Origin: Candidatus Heimdallarchaeota archaeon
Lineage (GTDB): Archaea > Asgardarchaeota > Heimdallarchaeia > Heimdallarchaeales > Heimdallarchaeaceae
Direction: 5' to 3'
DNA length: 35,963 nt
Assembly: GCA_023705945.1 (NCBI GenBank)
Contig: BPTM01000010.1
Location: 1-35,963 of the forward strand
In this document: positions 3 to 8,261 of the stretch, piece by piece
Layout of the letters: every line of letters starts with the position of its first letter
Position numbering within the stretch: the first letter of the stretch is position 1
Position numbers and translations under genes: made by a program
Notes under the pieces: model-generated
What the model was told of the DNA's origin: nothing
The model's database searches: none
Seen by the model: only the letters and a program-made list of their open reading frames with translations

Positions 3-203
3 AGTGTATCTAGTAGCAAAATACACTTTGGAATAAATCTGAGTTGTACAGGTTTCCCACAGCATGTTAAAGCAACATGTTTATTTGATTTGGACATAAA
101 GGAAGCTGATATGGAAGAAATTGTAGTTCAAATAACAGAGAAATATGTGGAAGAAATGCAACGAATAAAGGAAGATGTTTCAAAGACACGTTACATACAC
201 TAG
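3..203 (+). CDS. 3' end of an unidentified gene (partial)
   Basis: An open frame enters from the left edge and stops at TAG 201-203, giving the last 66 residues of a protein that ends in SKTRYIH. No ATG is needed because the gene begins outside the window. The tail holds a short beta-like stretch with two Cys (around SCTGF and ATCLF) and then an acidic amphipathic helix. I do not recognise the family. The stop lies 8 bases before queD, and GGTGA at 204-208 (immediately after the stop) serves as the queD ribosome binding site, so the gene is probably co-transcribed with queD and queC. A role in deazaguanine or pterin metabolism is only a guess from this position. Confidence 0.6.
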   Translation, partial: SVSSSKIHFGINLSCTGFPQHVKATCLFDLDIKEADMEEIVVQITEKYVEEMQRIKEDVSKTRYIH

Positions 204-211
204 GTGATTAA

Positions 212-667
212 ATGAAATTGAGGATTGCTGGTGACAAACTTACAATTGCATGTGCTCATATGCTTTCGAAACACGATAAATGTGCTCGTATACATGGTCA
301 TAATTATCAAATTGAAGTTGAAATAGAAGGAGATCTAAATGAGAGCAATATGATTATTGATTTTGGTCTTTTCAAAAAAGGTGTGAGCGAGATTCTTAAA
401 GAATTAGATCACAAAACATTACTTCCTGAAAATAGCAAGGATTTTAGCATAAAAACTAACGAGAAAGAAGTAGTGGTTACAACGTGTGAGGATAAAAGAT
501 ATAGATTCCCTAGAGAAGATGTCAAATTACTTCCAATAGAAGCAACTACAGCTGAACTTATGGTCATATATTTTCATGATTTAATTAAAAAACAATTTCC
601 AGAATTTAAAATTACAGTTATTATGTCGGAAACGCCTACAAGTAAGGTCATCTATACAGGTGATTGA
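212..667 (+). CDS. queD: 6-carboxytetrahydropterin synthase QueD / 6-pyruvoyl-tetrahydropterin synthase family
   Basis: The 151-residue protein has the full signature of the PTPS/QueD fold. Zinc-binding histidines are H16, H28 and H30 (the last two in HGHNY), the catalytic cysteine C24 lies four residues before HGH (CARIHGH), a LDHKTLL motif supplies the Asp/His pair, and SETPTSK near the C-terminus carries the pterin-binding glutamate. The family converts 7,8-dihydroneopterin triphosphate to 6-carboxy-tetrahydropterin, the first committed step to 7-deazaguanines. queC follows 61 bases downstream, so the expected end product is preQ0 for archaeosine in tRNA. GGTGA lies just before the start. 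The reaction is assigned from the family and from the neighbour; a pyruvoyl-tetrahydropterin activity cannot be excluded from sequence. Confidence 0.9.
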   Translation: MKLRIAGDKLTIACAHMLSKHDKCARIHGHNYQIEVEIEGDLNESNMIIDFGLFKKGVSEILKELDHKTLLPENSKDFSIKTNEKEVVVTTCEDKRYRFPREDVKLLPIEATTAELMVIYFHDLIKKQFPEFKITVIMSETPTSKVIYTGD

Positions 668-728: not shown

Positions 729-1448
729 ATGAGTATAGCAATAGTATTATTCTCTGGAGGATTAGATTCTTCCGCTTGCCTTTACTGGGCTTTGGAACAA
801 TATGAAGAGATAACACTGTTAAGTTTCAAATATGGTAGCAAAGAAGATGAAGTCATTCAAAGATTGAATCTGCTATTTGCAGAAATTTACAATTTGGAAA
901 GCAAGATTATCTCTCTAGATTTCCTTGAAGAACTCTCCTCAAAAAGAGGTTCAAAACTCGCATTGTCTGAATTGGATCCTCCTGAATTTTCTAGTTTTAA
1001 GCAACTTGATGAAAGCAAATTGACAAAAGAAACTGCAAATCAAGTATGGGTTCCAGCAAGAAACATCCTATTTATATCGGTAGCTTCAGCTTTTGCAGAT
1101 AGTTACAAAGAACCGGTTCACATCTTATTCGGTGCAAACAAAGAAGAAGCATCAACATTTCCAGACAATACTCCCGAGTTTGTAGAACGGATGAATGATG
1201 CCATTAATCTAGGTTGTTTAAACGAGGTTTCTGTTCTTGCACCTTTCAATACACAAGTAAAAAGAGAGATTATTGAGTTTTTGATTGAAAAAGAGGCAAA
1301 ATTTGAGTATATGTCTTCTTGTTATCAAGTCAAAAAATGGACCAAGGAGGGATATCCTATCCATTGTGGAATTTGTGAGTCATGCCAAAGAAAAAAGAGA
1401 GCTTTTCAAGAATCAGGGGTTTCGGATCCAACATTTTATAAGAAATAA
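729..1448 (+). CDS. queC: 7-cyano-7-deazaguanine synthase QueC
   Basis: The 239-residue protein opens with the PP-loop SGGLDSS at residues 9-15, which binds and pyrophosphorolyses ATP. It ends with the zinc site typical of QueC: C198, C213, C216 and C219 in the pattern SSC...HCGICESCQRKK. QueC converts 7-carboxy-7-deazaguanine to preQ0 using ATP and ammonia. In archaea preQ0 is inserted into tRNA by archaeosine tRNA-guanine transglycosylase. The gene lies downstream of queD on the same strand; queE is not visible in the window. Length and motifs match the family. A rightward frame at 1285-1482 is only a shadow of this gene. Confidence 0.93.
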   Translation: MSIAIVLFSGGLDSSACLYWALEQYEEITLLSFKYGSKEDEVIQRLNLLFAEIYNLESKIISLDFLEELSSKRGSKLALSELDPPEFSSFKQLDESKLTKETANQVWVPARNILFISVASAFADSYKEPVHILFGANKEEASTFPDNTPEFVERMNDAINLGCLNEVSVLAPFNTQVKREIIEFLIEKEAKFEYMSSCYQVKKWTKEGYPIHCGICESCQRKKRAFQESGVSDPTFYKK

Positions 1449-1512
1449 GGCCATTTGGAAAGCAAATAGTTTTTATTTGTAGTTCGCCTCTGTATACAAT
1501 GGGGTGAAATGT

Positions 1513-2157
1513 ATGGGCCTACGTATCTTTTCAGTTAACAAAGATGGTAGTTTTTTCGAAGTTCCATCTGAGAAAGATAGTTTTCTTCGTGGTGATGGAG
1601 CTTATTTGATTGTAGATAGAAAAGAAAAGAAGATATTCATCTATCGAAAAATGGGCATATCAAGTGTTTTGGCTTATTCAGCAGCTAGAGCAGCAACCAA
1701 CCTAAATACACAGAAGGGGTCAAGATATAGAGTCATCAATATAGAGGAGGAAGAGAAGGATCGGATACTTCCGTCACTTTATAAGAAGCTAGATGTTTCG
1801 ATTTCAAGTGAGATTAAAGAAAACAAGGAATCAGAGAGAATCTCGAGAAACATTGTTTACGGTGAAAAAACCATTCCAGTTTTTGAAACGCAAAACTATT
1901 CTCCAAGCGTCCAGACTACGAAACAAGAAAGGAAAATACAACCTATAAGAAAAATTCTTCATGTAGAGAAAGAAGAGGAGAGTTACAAAACCCAAAATAT
2001 TGATGAATTAGTTAAAACGTTAGCAAATCAGATTCTTTTTGAAACTAAATTGGACAAAGCTAAAAAAATGAAAAAACCAGCTAGACATATTCTAAAAGCT
2101 GAGATGGTTAAAAAAATAGATTCGCTATTAGATAGTATATATGAGGAAGAAAGCTAA
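1513..2157 (+). CDS. Gelsolin-like domain protein (candidate)
   Basis: I start this gene at ATG 1513 (214 aa), because GGTGA at 1503-1507 then sits five bases upstream; the GTG at 1504 lies inside that site. Residues about 27-95 have the layout of a gelsolin homology domain: a strand ending in aspartate (GAYLIVD), a second strand (KIFIYRK), a long alanine-rich helix (SVLAYSAARAATNL), then a strand (RYRVINIEEEE) and a helix. The rest is charged, probably disordered, with a basic helical end (from about NIDELVKTLA onwards). Gelsolin-domain proteins are known from Asgard archaea, where they act on actin homologues. The match is by eye and the repeat is single, so actin binding is a hypothesis. 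Its stop overlaps the stop of the convergent methyltransferase gene by four bases. Confidence 0.6.
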   Translation: MGLRIFSVNKDGSFFEVPSEKDSFLRGDGAYLIVDRKEKKIFIYRKMGISSVLAYSAARAATNLNTQKGSRYRVINIEEEEKDRILPSLYKKLDVSISSEIKENKESERISRNIVYGEKTIPVFETQNYSPSVQTTKQERKIQPIRKILHVEKEEESYKTQNIDELVKTLANQILFETKLDKAKKMKKPARHILKAEMVKKIDSLLDSIYEEES

Positions 2158-3482
2158 CTACTCTCTTTCTTCATTCTCGCAATGAAAAAACCTTCAGTTT
2201 TATGAATGTGAGGATATAACGTTTGAGTTCTATTATTCAATAGATCAGATGGTATACCAATCATTGGTGAAGCTAGCATTAAGGAAAAGTTTGAGTTGTT
2301 CTTGAGAAATTGTGAAATGATCTCATGATTTTCGTCTTCAAAAAGTGAACAGGTTGAATAAACAATACATCCATCCACTTCAAGAAGCTTGGAGGCTTCA
2401 CTAAGTAAATCATTCTGTAATTTAATATACCAGTTAAGATCTCTTTGTTTAATTCTCCATTTAATGTCAGGTCTTGAAGAATAAGTCCCTGAACCAGAGC
2501 ATGGGGGATCAAGTAGAATTTTATCAAAAGTCGATTTAACAGCAGTTTTTAGATTTCTTGCGTCTGCTGATAGAATTTTAACTTCTTCAGCACCTAACAA
2601 TTTTAATCGATTAGTTAATATTTTCACCCTTTCCTTGTTTAAATCAACTGCCAAAATATTTTTCGCAGTACCAGCTAGAGCTACAATATGTGAAGTTTTT
2701 CCCCCAGGCGATGCACACATATCAAGTATTTCCTCGTCTGGTTGTGGGTCCAGAACAAGTGAAACCAAAGCAGAAGCTTTCTGTTGCACAACAAGCTTAC
2801 CATCCTTAAATTCATCTAAGCGTGGAATTGGTACAGGTGTTTCATCAATACGTATAAGATCCGGTATAGTATCAACAGGTGTATATTTAATTTCATAGTC
2901 TGTAAGATTACCAGTAATCTCATCAAAAGATGCTTTTAGGATATTAATTCTTACATACATCGGGATACTTTCAAGGAAAGATTGTAATACTTTTTCTGTG
3001 AAATCTTCTCCCCATTGCTTGATGAATTTCCTAATTATCCAAGTGTAAGTAAAATACTTCAGAGAATATTTTGAGGGTAAATCTTCTCGGTTCTCATATA
3101 GATTTTCCTCAGTCACTGATTGGATTAATTCTAACAAAGTACAAAAAGAAATATGGGCAATGGAATGATAGTGGGGTTCAAGTATTGTAGCTACTTCATT
3201 AACTGACTTATTGTTTACTTTCAACATGTGTGTAGCTATGCGTAATAATGCCCTCATATCACTCTTTATTTTTTTAAGAGAAAAATTTGATGAACTGGTT
3301 TTTATAAAAAGATCAATCCAGTTAAGTTTTCTATAAATCTCATGAACATAATAATATAGAGTAGATTCTTCTTCTCTATCTAACTTATATTGATTAACGT
3401 GAAAGCGTAAAACATTGCGTAGAGATTTCCCTTTGTCTATATCCTCTAATGCAGATATAACTATAGGAATAATAGAATCCAT
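2154..3482 (-). CDS. RsmB/NOP2/NSUN-type RNA m5C methyltransferase
   Basis: This 442-residue protein has an N-terminal NusB-like helical region (about 1-150) and a C-terminal SAM-dependent Rossmann domain. Diagnostic motifs are LDMCASPGGKTSHI (motif I, SAM binding), LLDPPCSGSGTYS (motif IV with the PPC cysteine) and YSTCSLFEDEN (motif VI with the TC catalytic cysteine). Two cysteines in motifs IV and VI are the hallmark of RNA cytosine-C5 methyltransferases. The exact target (rRNA or tRNA) cannot be read from sequence; the NusB-like front end resembles bacterial RsmB. It is transcribed leftwards, convergent with the gelsolin-like gene, and 53 bases downstream of the Nif3-like gene on the same strand. 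Confidence 0.88.
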   Translation of the reverse strand: MDSIIPIVISALEDIDKGKSLRNVLRFHVNQYKLDREEESTLYYYVHEIYRKLNWIDLFIKTSSSNFSLKKIKSDMRALLRIATHMLKVNNKSVNEVATILEPHYHSIAHISFCTLLELIQSVTEENLYENREDLPSKYSLKYFTYTWIIRKFIKQWGEDFTEKVLQSFLESIPMYVRINILKASFDEITGNLTDYEIKYTPVDTIPDLIRIDETPVPIPRLDEFKDGKLVVQQKASALVSLVLDPQPDEEILDMCASPGGKTSHIVALAGTAKNILAVDLNKERVKILTNRLKLLGAEEVKILSADARNLKTAVKSTFDKILLDPPCSGSGTYSSRPDIKWRIKQRDLNWYIKLQNDLLSEASKLLEVDGCIVYSTCSLFEDENHEIISQFLKNNSNFSLMLASPMIGIPSDLLNNRTQTLYPHIHKTEGFFIARMKKESS

Positions 3483-3535: not shown

Positions 3536-4342
3536 TTAGTTGGTTAAATCATTGTTAGAAATCCAGTTTACTATCTCTTGCGGATAGAAGATTACTTTCT
3601 GCTCTACTTTCATTTGTAATAACTGTGAAAACTTTCTAAGAGCGATATTACAGAAATCCTGTATTGGCAGAAATAGGAAATTCATTTTGTTTTGTTGATA
3701 ATCCTTTAATCGTTTTGAATCTAAATTGAAACTAATCACTGTAGTAACCCCTTCCTTCTTGAGTTTCTTTAGTTCTTCCAAAGATAGTTCTTGCCTCTCC
3801 AGTGCAAAACATTCAGACTCATCCATGGATGTGTTGTTAAAAGCAGTCCATCTCTTTGTGAGATGAGAAAGATTTGCTAGGAAATCTTTGAAAGAAATTC
3901 CACTAGTCTTCCAGCTATAAATGTTGTTACTTGGAGATACGGAAACTTTGTCTTGTTTAAAGTGATTGATACCAAGAGTTTGAAGAAAGTACGCAAAAGC
4001 ACCATTTTGTGAGTACAACCAACTATTAGATAGGCTCATTGTTTTGATATTATTGGTAGTTAAAGAGCGTAATAATTCAAAATCTCGCTCAGATAATGGA
4101 AAACCATTTTCAATAATTGATAAAGGCATAATAGTGATAACCAAATTAGATTTGTTTTCATTCATCGAGTGCATAAGTCTAAGATTAGCAAATGTGGAAA
4201 CGAAAATCGTTTTTATTTTAGTAGATTTTGTAACTTTCTCAGCATAAGTTCCAAACTCAATCCCAAAATCCTTACTTCGTATAACGTCTTTATCACACAT
4301 TGAACTAAGCAATGTCAGTATCTCGTCTAAAGTTTTTGTCAT
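3536..4342 (-). CDS. Degenerate Nif3/DUF34-like protein
   Basis: The 268-residue protein follows the Nif3 (DUF34) pattern: a start resembling the family's first helix (LDEILTLLSSM), a strand that in the family reads LLITHHP (here NLVITIMPLSI), a segment like the family's Ia-vyahHt block (NNIKTMSLSNSWLYSQNGAFAYFLQTLGI), and a C-terminal half that again alternates strands and helices. The metal-binding HH of THHP is replaced by IM, and the later conserved His is Ser/Asn, so the di-metal site appears lost. The fold assignment is by motif comparison only. It precedes the m5C methyltransferase on the same strand; the function is unknown. An alternative is a diverged, unrelated alpha/beta protein. 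Confidence 0.5.
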   Translation of the reverse strand: MTKTLDEILTLLSSMCDKDVIRSKDFGIEFGTYAEKVTKSTKIKTIFVSTFANLRLMHSMNENKSNLVITIMPLSIIENGFPLSERDFELLRSLTTNNIKTMSLSNSWLYSQNGAFAYFLQTLGINHFKQDKVSVSPSNNIYSWKTSGISFKDFLANLSHLTKRWTAFNNTSMDESECFALERQELSLEELKKLKKEGVTTVISFNLDSKRLKDYQQNKMNFLFLPIQDFCNIALRKFSQLLQMKVEQKVIFYPQEIVNWISNNDLTN

Positions 4343-7106: not shown

Positions 7107-8261
7107 ATGAAAGTAGATGAATTCAAGTGTGATTCATGTGGTAAACATTTTACCAGAAAATATGGATTAACTCGTCACATTAAAACAGTTCATAACAAAG
7201 AGAAGAAGCATAAATGCCCTCAGTGTGGTCTCGCATTCTCAAGAAAAGACATGGTATACCGTCATGTTAGAGACGTTCATCTCGGAATTAAAAAACACAA
7301 ATGCACAGTTTGTGGTTTAAGTTTTGCTCATCTAGCACACCTTGAACGTCACATATCATCAGTTCATGATGTGGATAGAAAATTCAAATGTAGCTACTGT
7401 GGAGATGCTTTCTCAAGAGAAGATACATTAAACAGACATATAAGAACTATTCATTTAAATCTTCGACCTTATACTTGCAAGGAATGTGGAAAAAGCTTTA
7501 AGCTCCTACAACATTTACAAGAGCACTTTATTTCTCTTCATACTAACCAACGTCAATATATCTGCGAAGAGTGTGGTTTTGCCTTCAAACTTCGTCATCA
7601 CTTAAACGATCATGTCAAAGTTGTTCATCAAAATCATCGTCCTTATGCTTGTGAGGAATGTGATTCTGCATTCCCCCATTCTCGTGGGTTGAAACTTCAT
7701 ATAATTGCTATGCATACTGATGAGAAACCTTTTGTCTGCAAGGATTGTGGGAGAGGTTTTGCTGATCCTAGTCATTTGTATAAACATAAACAAGCTGAAG
7801 CTTGTTGGTTTACTACTACTACTGCATACAAGTGGGAAGAGCTTTGTAAAGAGATAGCTGAGGTTCTTTTAAAAGGTAAGAACTGGGAGTGGAAACCTAC
7901 TATAGAAACACCTGAGTTGGTTGAGCAGACTAGAGTGCAACCTGAGATAGTTATCTATAATGATGATGGTACGATGGATTTTATCGATGCTAAGAGGTCT
8001 ACTTATGCTATCTACAAGGAAAAGGATCTGGTAGTTTATCCAAAAGTGGCTAGGAAGGTGGAGTTCTGGTGTCTCTATGGCAAAACCAAGGGATTGTTTG
8101 AAGAGGAGGAAATGATAGAAGGAAAATCAAGTAAAGAGATAATAAATGAACTAAAACAACAAAGATCTGAAGAAAAAAAGAAAGAAATAGACGCAATAAT
8201 TATGAAAATTTTGCTCCTTAAAAAAGGAATTGAATATAATAATCAAACACAACTGATCTAA
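7107..8261 (+). CDS. Eight-finger C2H2 zinc-finger protein fused to a PD-(D/E)XK-like nuclease domain
   Basis: The 384-residue protein begins with eight tandem fingers at an exact 29-residue period: residues 8-29, 37-58, 66-87, 95-116, 124-145, 153-174, 182-203 and 211-233. Fingers 1-7 are classic C-x2-C-x12-H-x4-H with the conserved Phe and Leu; finger 8 ends in Cys (C2HC). The linkers are seven residues and the last reads TDEKPFV, close to the eukaryotic TGEKP linker. After a helix (KWEELCKEIAEVL), residues about 265-330 look like a restriction-endonuclease core: QPEIVI (E280), a turn, FIDAKRS (D294, K296 as the D-x-K site), then KVEFWCLYGK. A charged coiled tail (333-375) follows. Sequence-specific DNA cleavage, like an engineered zinc-finger nuclease, is a hypothesis. 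The alternative is a regulator with an inactive nuclease fold. Confidence 0.82.
   Translation: MKVDEFKCDSCGKHFTRKYGLTRHIKTVHNKEKKHKCPQCGLAFSRKDMVYRHVRDVHLGIKKHKCTVCGLSFAHLAHLERHISSVHDVDRKFKCSYCGDAFSREDTLNRHIRTIHLNLRPYTCKECGKSFKLLQHLQEHFISLHTNQRQYICEECGFAFKLRHHLNDHVKVVHQNHRPYACEECDSAFPHSRGLKLHIIAMHTDEKPFVCKDCGRGFADPSHLYKHKQAEACWFTTTTAYKWEELCKEIAEVLLKGKNWEWKPTIETPELVEQTRVQPEIVIYNDDGTMDFIDAKRSTYAIYKEKDLVVYPKVARKVEFWCLYGKTKGLFEEEEMIEGKSSKEIINELKQQRSEEKKKEIDAIIMKILLLKKGIEYNNQTQLI

Follow-up and report, generated by a model that had tools for sequence, protein, structure and literature searches.

Why does a Heimdall-group archaeon carry a gene for a gelsolin-like protein beside genes for preQ0 synthesis, and what would such a protein do there? 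The question is raised by a window of 35,963 nucleotides (the whole stretch of DNA that was analysed), which comes from a genome of 3.0 Mb that is 79% complete. QueC, QueD, QueE and MptA-type enzymes make preQ0, the precursor of archaeosine. A sequence-only reading of this DNA had placed at 1513-2157, on the plus strand, a single gelsolin-like domain with a basic tail next to queosine-type genes, and had proposed a small actin-severing or actin-binding factor. The 214-aa frame lies where it was claimed, all four peptide strings quoted from it are present in its translation, and the queosine-type neighbours were recognised as PTPS/QueD and QueC. The features on which the argument depends are as follows.

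3..203, plus strand: DUF366 gene, truncated by the contig end so that its 3' part remains (PF04017 match G000:C10:3-191)
212..667, plus strand: QueD-type 6-carboxytetrahydropterin synthase (PF01242, 1.4e-23; TIGR03367, 2.5e-21, below cut-off)
729..1448, plus strand: QueC, 7-cyano-7-deazaguanine synthase (PF06508, 1.5e-50; TIGR00364, 1.6e-42, just below cut-off)
1494..1512, plus strand: ribosome-binding region, GGGGTGAAA directly 5' of ATG 1513, read from sequence
1513..2157, plus strand: gene for the single gelsolin-domain protein, 214 aa, from ATG 1513 to the stop at 2157
1513..1797, plus strand: predicted domain of gelsolin type (residues 1-95), strands and helices in the sequence E E H E E H E H (AlphaFold, VIA, hhalign)
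1663..1713, plus strand: predicted long helix, residues 51-67, SVLAYSAARAATNLNTQ (AlphaFold helix H51-67)
1801..1986, plus strand: linker modelled at low confidence, approximately residues 97-158, containing YGEK at 116-119 (AlphaFold)
1984..2154, plus strand: C-terminal helical module, residues 158-214 (tail folded alone; conservation)
2154..3482, minus strand: RsmB/NOL1-type rRNA cytosine methyltransferase, the convergent neighbour (PF01189, 2.1e-56)

The open reading frame at 1513-2157 is a real gene under purifying selection. It is not a chance frame: each of the 22 other genomes in its family (f1) carries a relative, and comparison with four close relatives gives a dN/dS of 0.13-0.16. The family relatives, found by profile search, span the whole profile; the close ones, from Candidatus Heimdallarchaeota, are 84.6-89% identical to the 214-aa protein. 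Full-length relatives also occur in four genomes of two further families, f2 (G023) and f4 (G025, G027 and G029). Across the phylum, profile matches were obtained in 127 of 227 genomes at E <=1e-6, 27 of them with the full-length form. In the 27-sequence alignment (A1), one row (L028) begins at an internal codon (195 of about 228 aa) and another (L025) is four residues shorter than its longer frame. A search for a viral source returned 22 stretches that fit a peptide pattern, none of which encodes a relative of the protein. As for the start, GTG 1504, the first start in the frame listing, was rejected; ATG 1513 is the better choice because GTG 1504 falls inside the Shine-Dalgarno-like GGGGTGAAA. 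In 21 of the 23 family rows (all but L023 and L024), the string GGGGT occurs within the 20 bases 5' of the start.

Is the N-terminal domain a gelsolin domain? Searched as a single sequence, the 214-aa protein did not match PF00626 in Pfam up to E 10, and no gelsolin was found in NCBIfam or PDB; among the close relatives scanned only one (L015) showed a PF00626 match, at E 0.1, below cut-off. The likeness was reached in steps. The first search with the protein found two class-level proteins, L026 (E 1.5e-7) and L031 (1.3e-5), which pass the PF00626 cut-off of 21 bits with 23.1 and 23.5 bits, respectively; a third class-level protein (L030) falls below it. In PDB, the matches of L031 include Asgard 2DGel structures (4.2e-10) and villin (4.9e-4). 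The 27-sequence profile found Thorarchaeota ProGel (7c2f_B) first in PDB, at E 0.0039, and the next gelsolin was a Loki 2DGel (7whg) at E 0.23. Profile-profile comparison by hhalign with 13 two-domain gelsolins of the class, which had been collected with PF00626 and not with the 214-aa protein, gave a probability of 79.9 (E 1.4e-5) for the full profile and 91.0 (score 44.9) for the N-domain alone; the best of 100 column shuffles scored 21.4 and the reversed profile 17.7. Comparison with 12 Asgard 1DGelX proteins gave 98.8 (E 4.5e-17, residues 3-95), a figure that is not independent because those 12 were found with the protein's own profile. Homology of residues 1-95 to gelsolin domains is supported at the level of profiles. 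The phmmer match to antithrombin (E 0.021) and the match to BRX_N (0.041) were taken as chance, as were those of the tail half to ubiquilin (0.48-0.59) and to an amino-acid-binding protein (0.08), because all four are weak and unsupported by the fold result.

The predicted structure points the same way. The AlphaFold model arranges strands and helices in gelsolin order at residues 3-98, with pLDDT of 73-92 per ten-residue block up to residue 90 and 57 for residues 91-100; pTM of the whole protein is 0.42. Foldseek placed ProGel bound to rabbit actin (7c2f_B) first at 5.7e-5, among four matches at E <=0.001, and VIA aligned 88 residues of it with Z 12.7, rmsd 2.2 and 18% identity. Among the 50 VIA matches listed, 41 bear the name of a gelsolin-family protein in their title; nine are chains that partner actin in its entries, and we take these for gelsolin segments or hybrids. 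The gelsolin fold predicted for residues 1-95 is close to certain. The single gelsolin-type domain of the sequence-only reading is therefore borne out by profile, profile-profile and fold comparison, and neither a lack of gelsolin or ADF matches nor a different best fold was found. The model contains no second gelsolin domain of the kind that a two-domain gelsolin (2DGel) would have.

Gelsolin-domain proteins bind with a long helix in the actin cleft that lies between subdomains 1 and 3. The helix at residues 51-67 aligns with the long helix of ProGel and is the candidate actin-facing helix. It is conserved at Y55 and A57 (27/27 each), T62 (26/27) and R59 (23/27), and its presumably exposed residues differ from those of human gelsolin G1 at most positions. 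D135 and E157 (numbering of L036), two acidic residues that do not vary among the 13 two-domain gelsolins of the class, occupy what we take to be type II calcium-ligand positions. In the hhalign alignment, G29 and L53 of the 214-aa protein stand opposite them; residue 29 is acidic in 4/27 sequences (with one gap) and residue 53 in 0/27. The usual calcium control seems unlikely, since these presumed ligand positions are mostly non-acidic. The WH2-like LKKT/V pattern does not occur in the 214-aa protein and is scattered in 5/27 sequences; even among the 13 two-domain gelsolins it stands at the expected place in only one.

The rest of the protein differs from what had been proposed for it. The linker, with pLDDT below 50 at residues 97-117 and 119-158, is probably flexible; its YGE[KT] is kept in 21 of 22 family loci. 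In the whole-protein model, helices follow at 153-177 and 191-211, and when folded alone the tail forms helices at 6-18, 23-27 and 34-54 (tail numbering) with a mean pLDDT of 81.6. The tail had been described as basic. However, residues 159-214 hold 12 K+R and 10 D+E, a net charge of +2, and the net charge of the last 56 residues ranges from -6 to +3 over the 27 sequences. What is conserved in the tail is a helical module with a charge close to neutral, and the proposal of a conserved basic helix that binds a membrane or filament is left without support; these charges are the reason for rejecting a basic membrane helix. A model of the tail matches 26 of the 58 gelsolin-like loci examined, all of them in families f1, f2 and f4; one further sequence (L097), which the tail model did not find, was added by eye when the tails were aligned (A4). 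Foldseek with the tail alone gave no match in PDB, a result that does not show its fold to be new.

Other gelsolin-like proteins met in the searches carry different extensions. Twelve Asgard single-gelsolin proteins (alignment A2; L111, L113, L115, L116, L117, L118 and others) have another conserved C-terminal region, about REL.I.GN followed by PEG.F.AE.Y.PR..V.NG.V.AIE, with L119 shorter; no Pfam model rose above chance for the region of this type in L026 and L031. A 923-aa protein (L110:2233-5001) has an N-terminal gelsolin-like domain and then an apparent P-loop ATPase (FVVGDFGAGKS). In family f3 (L092, L093 and L094), the gelsolin-like genes adjoin genes whose products have about 105 aa; one of these products matches TerB weakly (PF05099, 3.3e-4, below cut-off), and no Que gene was found in these loci. 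The tail of a gelsolin-like protein from another Asgard family (L112:767-1453) contains a near repeat, ELMVEAFVKGILENPEIRKRV / ELLVEAFAKAIVEDPEIRKRF.

The source genome encodes one actin (454 bits) and two 2DGels. A search with PF00235 found no profilin there, which at 79% completeness is weak evidence. Actin binding by the 214-aa protein is plausible given this same-genome actin, the two 2DGels and the closest modelled fold, that of ProGel on actin; most likely, it would bind without calcium. The helix at residues 51-67 would occupy this actin cleft and hold actin monomers or barbed ends without calcium, and the tail may bind a partner that sets the place or time at which actin is held. Sequestering or capping is to be expected rather than the severing of multidomain gelsolins, because there is only one gelsolin domain. 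The proposal of actin severing is unsupported on this ground and because the two presumed calcium-ligand positions are mostly non-acidic. Taken together, the account that we favour, and consider rather probable, is that of a one-domain actin factor of the 1DGelX kind, probably calcium-independent, with a partner-binding tail.

The gene neighbourhood counts against this account, since a purely cytoskeletal role does not predict stable placement beside preQ0 genes; so do the lack of gelsolin matches in single-sequence searches, the exposed helix residues that differ from human gelsolin G1 and the missing profilin match. In family f1, a cluster for preQ0, the archaeosine precursor, ends with the gelsolin-domain gene. 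It follows QueC on the same strand in 22/22 genomes, 48-82 bases behind the QueC stop except at one locus whose first possible start is 5 bases behind, and it shares the locus with QueE, MptA/FolE2 and QueD in 22/22. From spacing and direction, it is probably co-transcribed with the cluster. In NCBIfam, MptA scores above its cut-off, while the QueD, QueC and QueE models match below theirs. A DUF366 gene is found in all 22 family genomes; in L033 and L043 its place is between MptA and QueD. At one locus (L055), QueD is separated from QueC by RsmB and its neighbour, and the gelsolin-domain gene stays beside QueC. Outside the family, it is divergent from QueE-MptA in G023 (f2), and from MptA and a weakly matched QueD in G025 and G029 (f4). 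In the literature searched, with subscription papers mostly outside its scope, no report was found that links gelsolin with archaeosine, or with queuosine in archaea; within the same scope no paper joined DUF366 with archaeosine, and papers on archaeosine and Asgard archaea concerned other topics. What is new here is that the tail module and preQ0/archaeosine genes keep company across three families.

Two other products of the window may be recorded. The gene at 3536-4342 on the minus strand (orf3536) is a conserved neighbour of RsmB and stands beside it in 21/22 family loci, L054 being too short to reach it, with weak similarity in G023; its best Pfam match is TadZ-like_ARD at 0.004, below cut-off, and it has no NCBIfam match. 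The protein at 7107-8261 on the plus strand has eight C2H2 zinc-finger stretches (zf-C2H2, 4.2e-39) and about 150 further residues without a Pfam or PDB sequence match; these contain DDGTMDFIDAKRS, which we presume could be a nuclease-like D..DxK motif, and a relative is found in L033.

The neighbourhood gives reason to consider that the gelsolin fold was kept without actin service, and that the protein is an adaptor or regulator of preQ0/archaeosine synthesis, for example with its tail bound to a Que enzyme. A preQ0 gene lies near 25 of the 26 examined loci that bear the tail versus 0 of the 32 gelsolin-like loci that lack it, and the link has survived the rearrangement in L055 and the divergent arrangements in G023, G025 and G029, with the order from QueC to the gelsolin-domain gene kept throughout the family. 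However, the 26 tail-bearing loci come from only three families, 22 of them from one, and are hence not independent. The 32 tail-less loci are part of many more that were listed, some of them on short contigs (e.g. L060 and L097) and some from family f5, and divergent Que genes elsewhere could be missed because the Que queries came from these families. Gene order may also be inherited passively. One genome (G027, f4) has the tail module with no Que gene nearby, the QueD assignment in G025 depends on a weak TIGR03367 match (1.3e-4, below cut-off), and the 214-aa protein itself matched no enzyme or RNA-binding family. Furthermore, gelsolin-like proteins that lack the module occur in genomes that gave no QueC match: at E 1e-10, QueC was detected in 0/12 genomes of family f5, whereas 42 of the 58 class genomes searched have it. 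We regard such an adaptor as unlikely on balance, though as the most probable of the alternatives.

The one-domain actin factor is preferred with much more assurance over a protein that works in the manner of ADF/cofilin, whose fold is related to that of gelsolin. The best solved match is ProGel, treated as the Asgard counterpart of cofilin in PMC9433394, and the presumed calcium ligands, mostly missing, would suit such a role. The 214-aa protein gave no Pfam match to ADF-H. On the other hand, profile comparison favours PF00626-matching proteins, and no title among the 50 VIA matches listed names ADF or cofilin, although absence from such a list says little; we consider this role improbable. 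It is slightly more doubtful still that the likeness is one of fold only and that the domain has some unrelated role: the failure of single-sequence searches to find a gelsolin would agree with this, but a chain of profile matches leads to gelsolins with solved actin complexes and the shuffle control lies far below the observed score. Equally doubtful is an actin-fold regulator wired into tRNA modification, by which a gelsolin-type product of the preQ0/archaeosine operon, with a helical tail of its own, would couple cytoskeletal state to preQ0 synthesis or place Que enzymes on actin.

How, then, does the 214-aa protein compare with known gelsolin systems? In PMC9433394, proteins of two Lokiarchaeota are named as ProGels and 1DGelXs, and a Thorarchaeota ProGel is reported to be functional. 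We file the protein under the 1DGelX kind, a name from that paper which, to judge by its wording, denotes a gelsolin domain with a non-gelsolin extension. Like the Asgard 1DGelX proteins, it has one gelsolin-type domain followed by such an extension (98.8 against a set found with its own profile). Unlike the 12 aligned ones, in which the extension is another conserved domain, it has a helical module and preQ0 gene neighbours. With Thorarchaeota ProGel (PDB 7c2f, on rabbit actin) it shares the predicted domain fold (Z 12.7) and a similar long helix, but the solved ProGel chain has 94 residues and is a short domain without extension, whereas the protein here has 214 residues and a conserved tail. 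It aligns with the second domain of the 2DGels (PDB 7c2g, 7whf and 7whg; two are encoded in the source genome) and differs from them in having one domain, not two, and in its mostly non-acidic residues at the two presumed calcium-ligand positions. With eukaryotic gelsolin, villin and severin it shares the predicted domain fold (VIA Z about 10-12); these proteins have three to six domains under calcium control according to PMC9433394, whereas the 214-aa protein has one domain. Single-domain gelsolin proteins bear on the origin of eukaryotic gelsolin and cofilin, and this locus adds a Heimdall-group case that can be tested: a probable one-domain actin factor that would work without calcium, with a possible link to tRNA modification.
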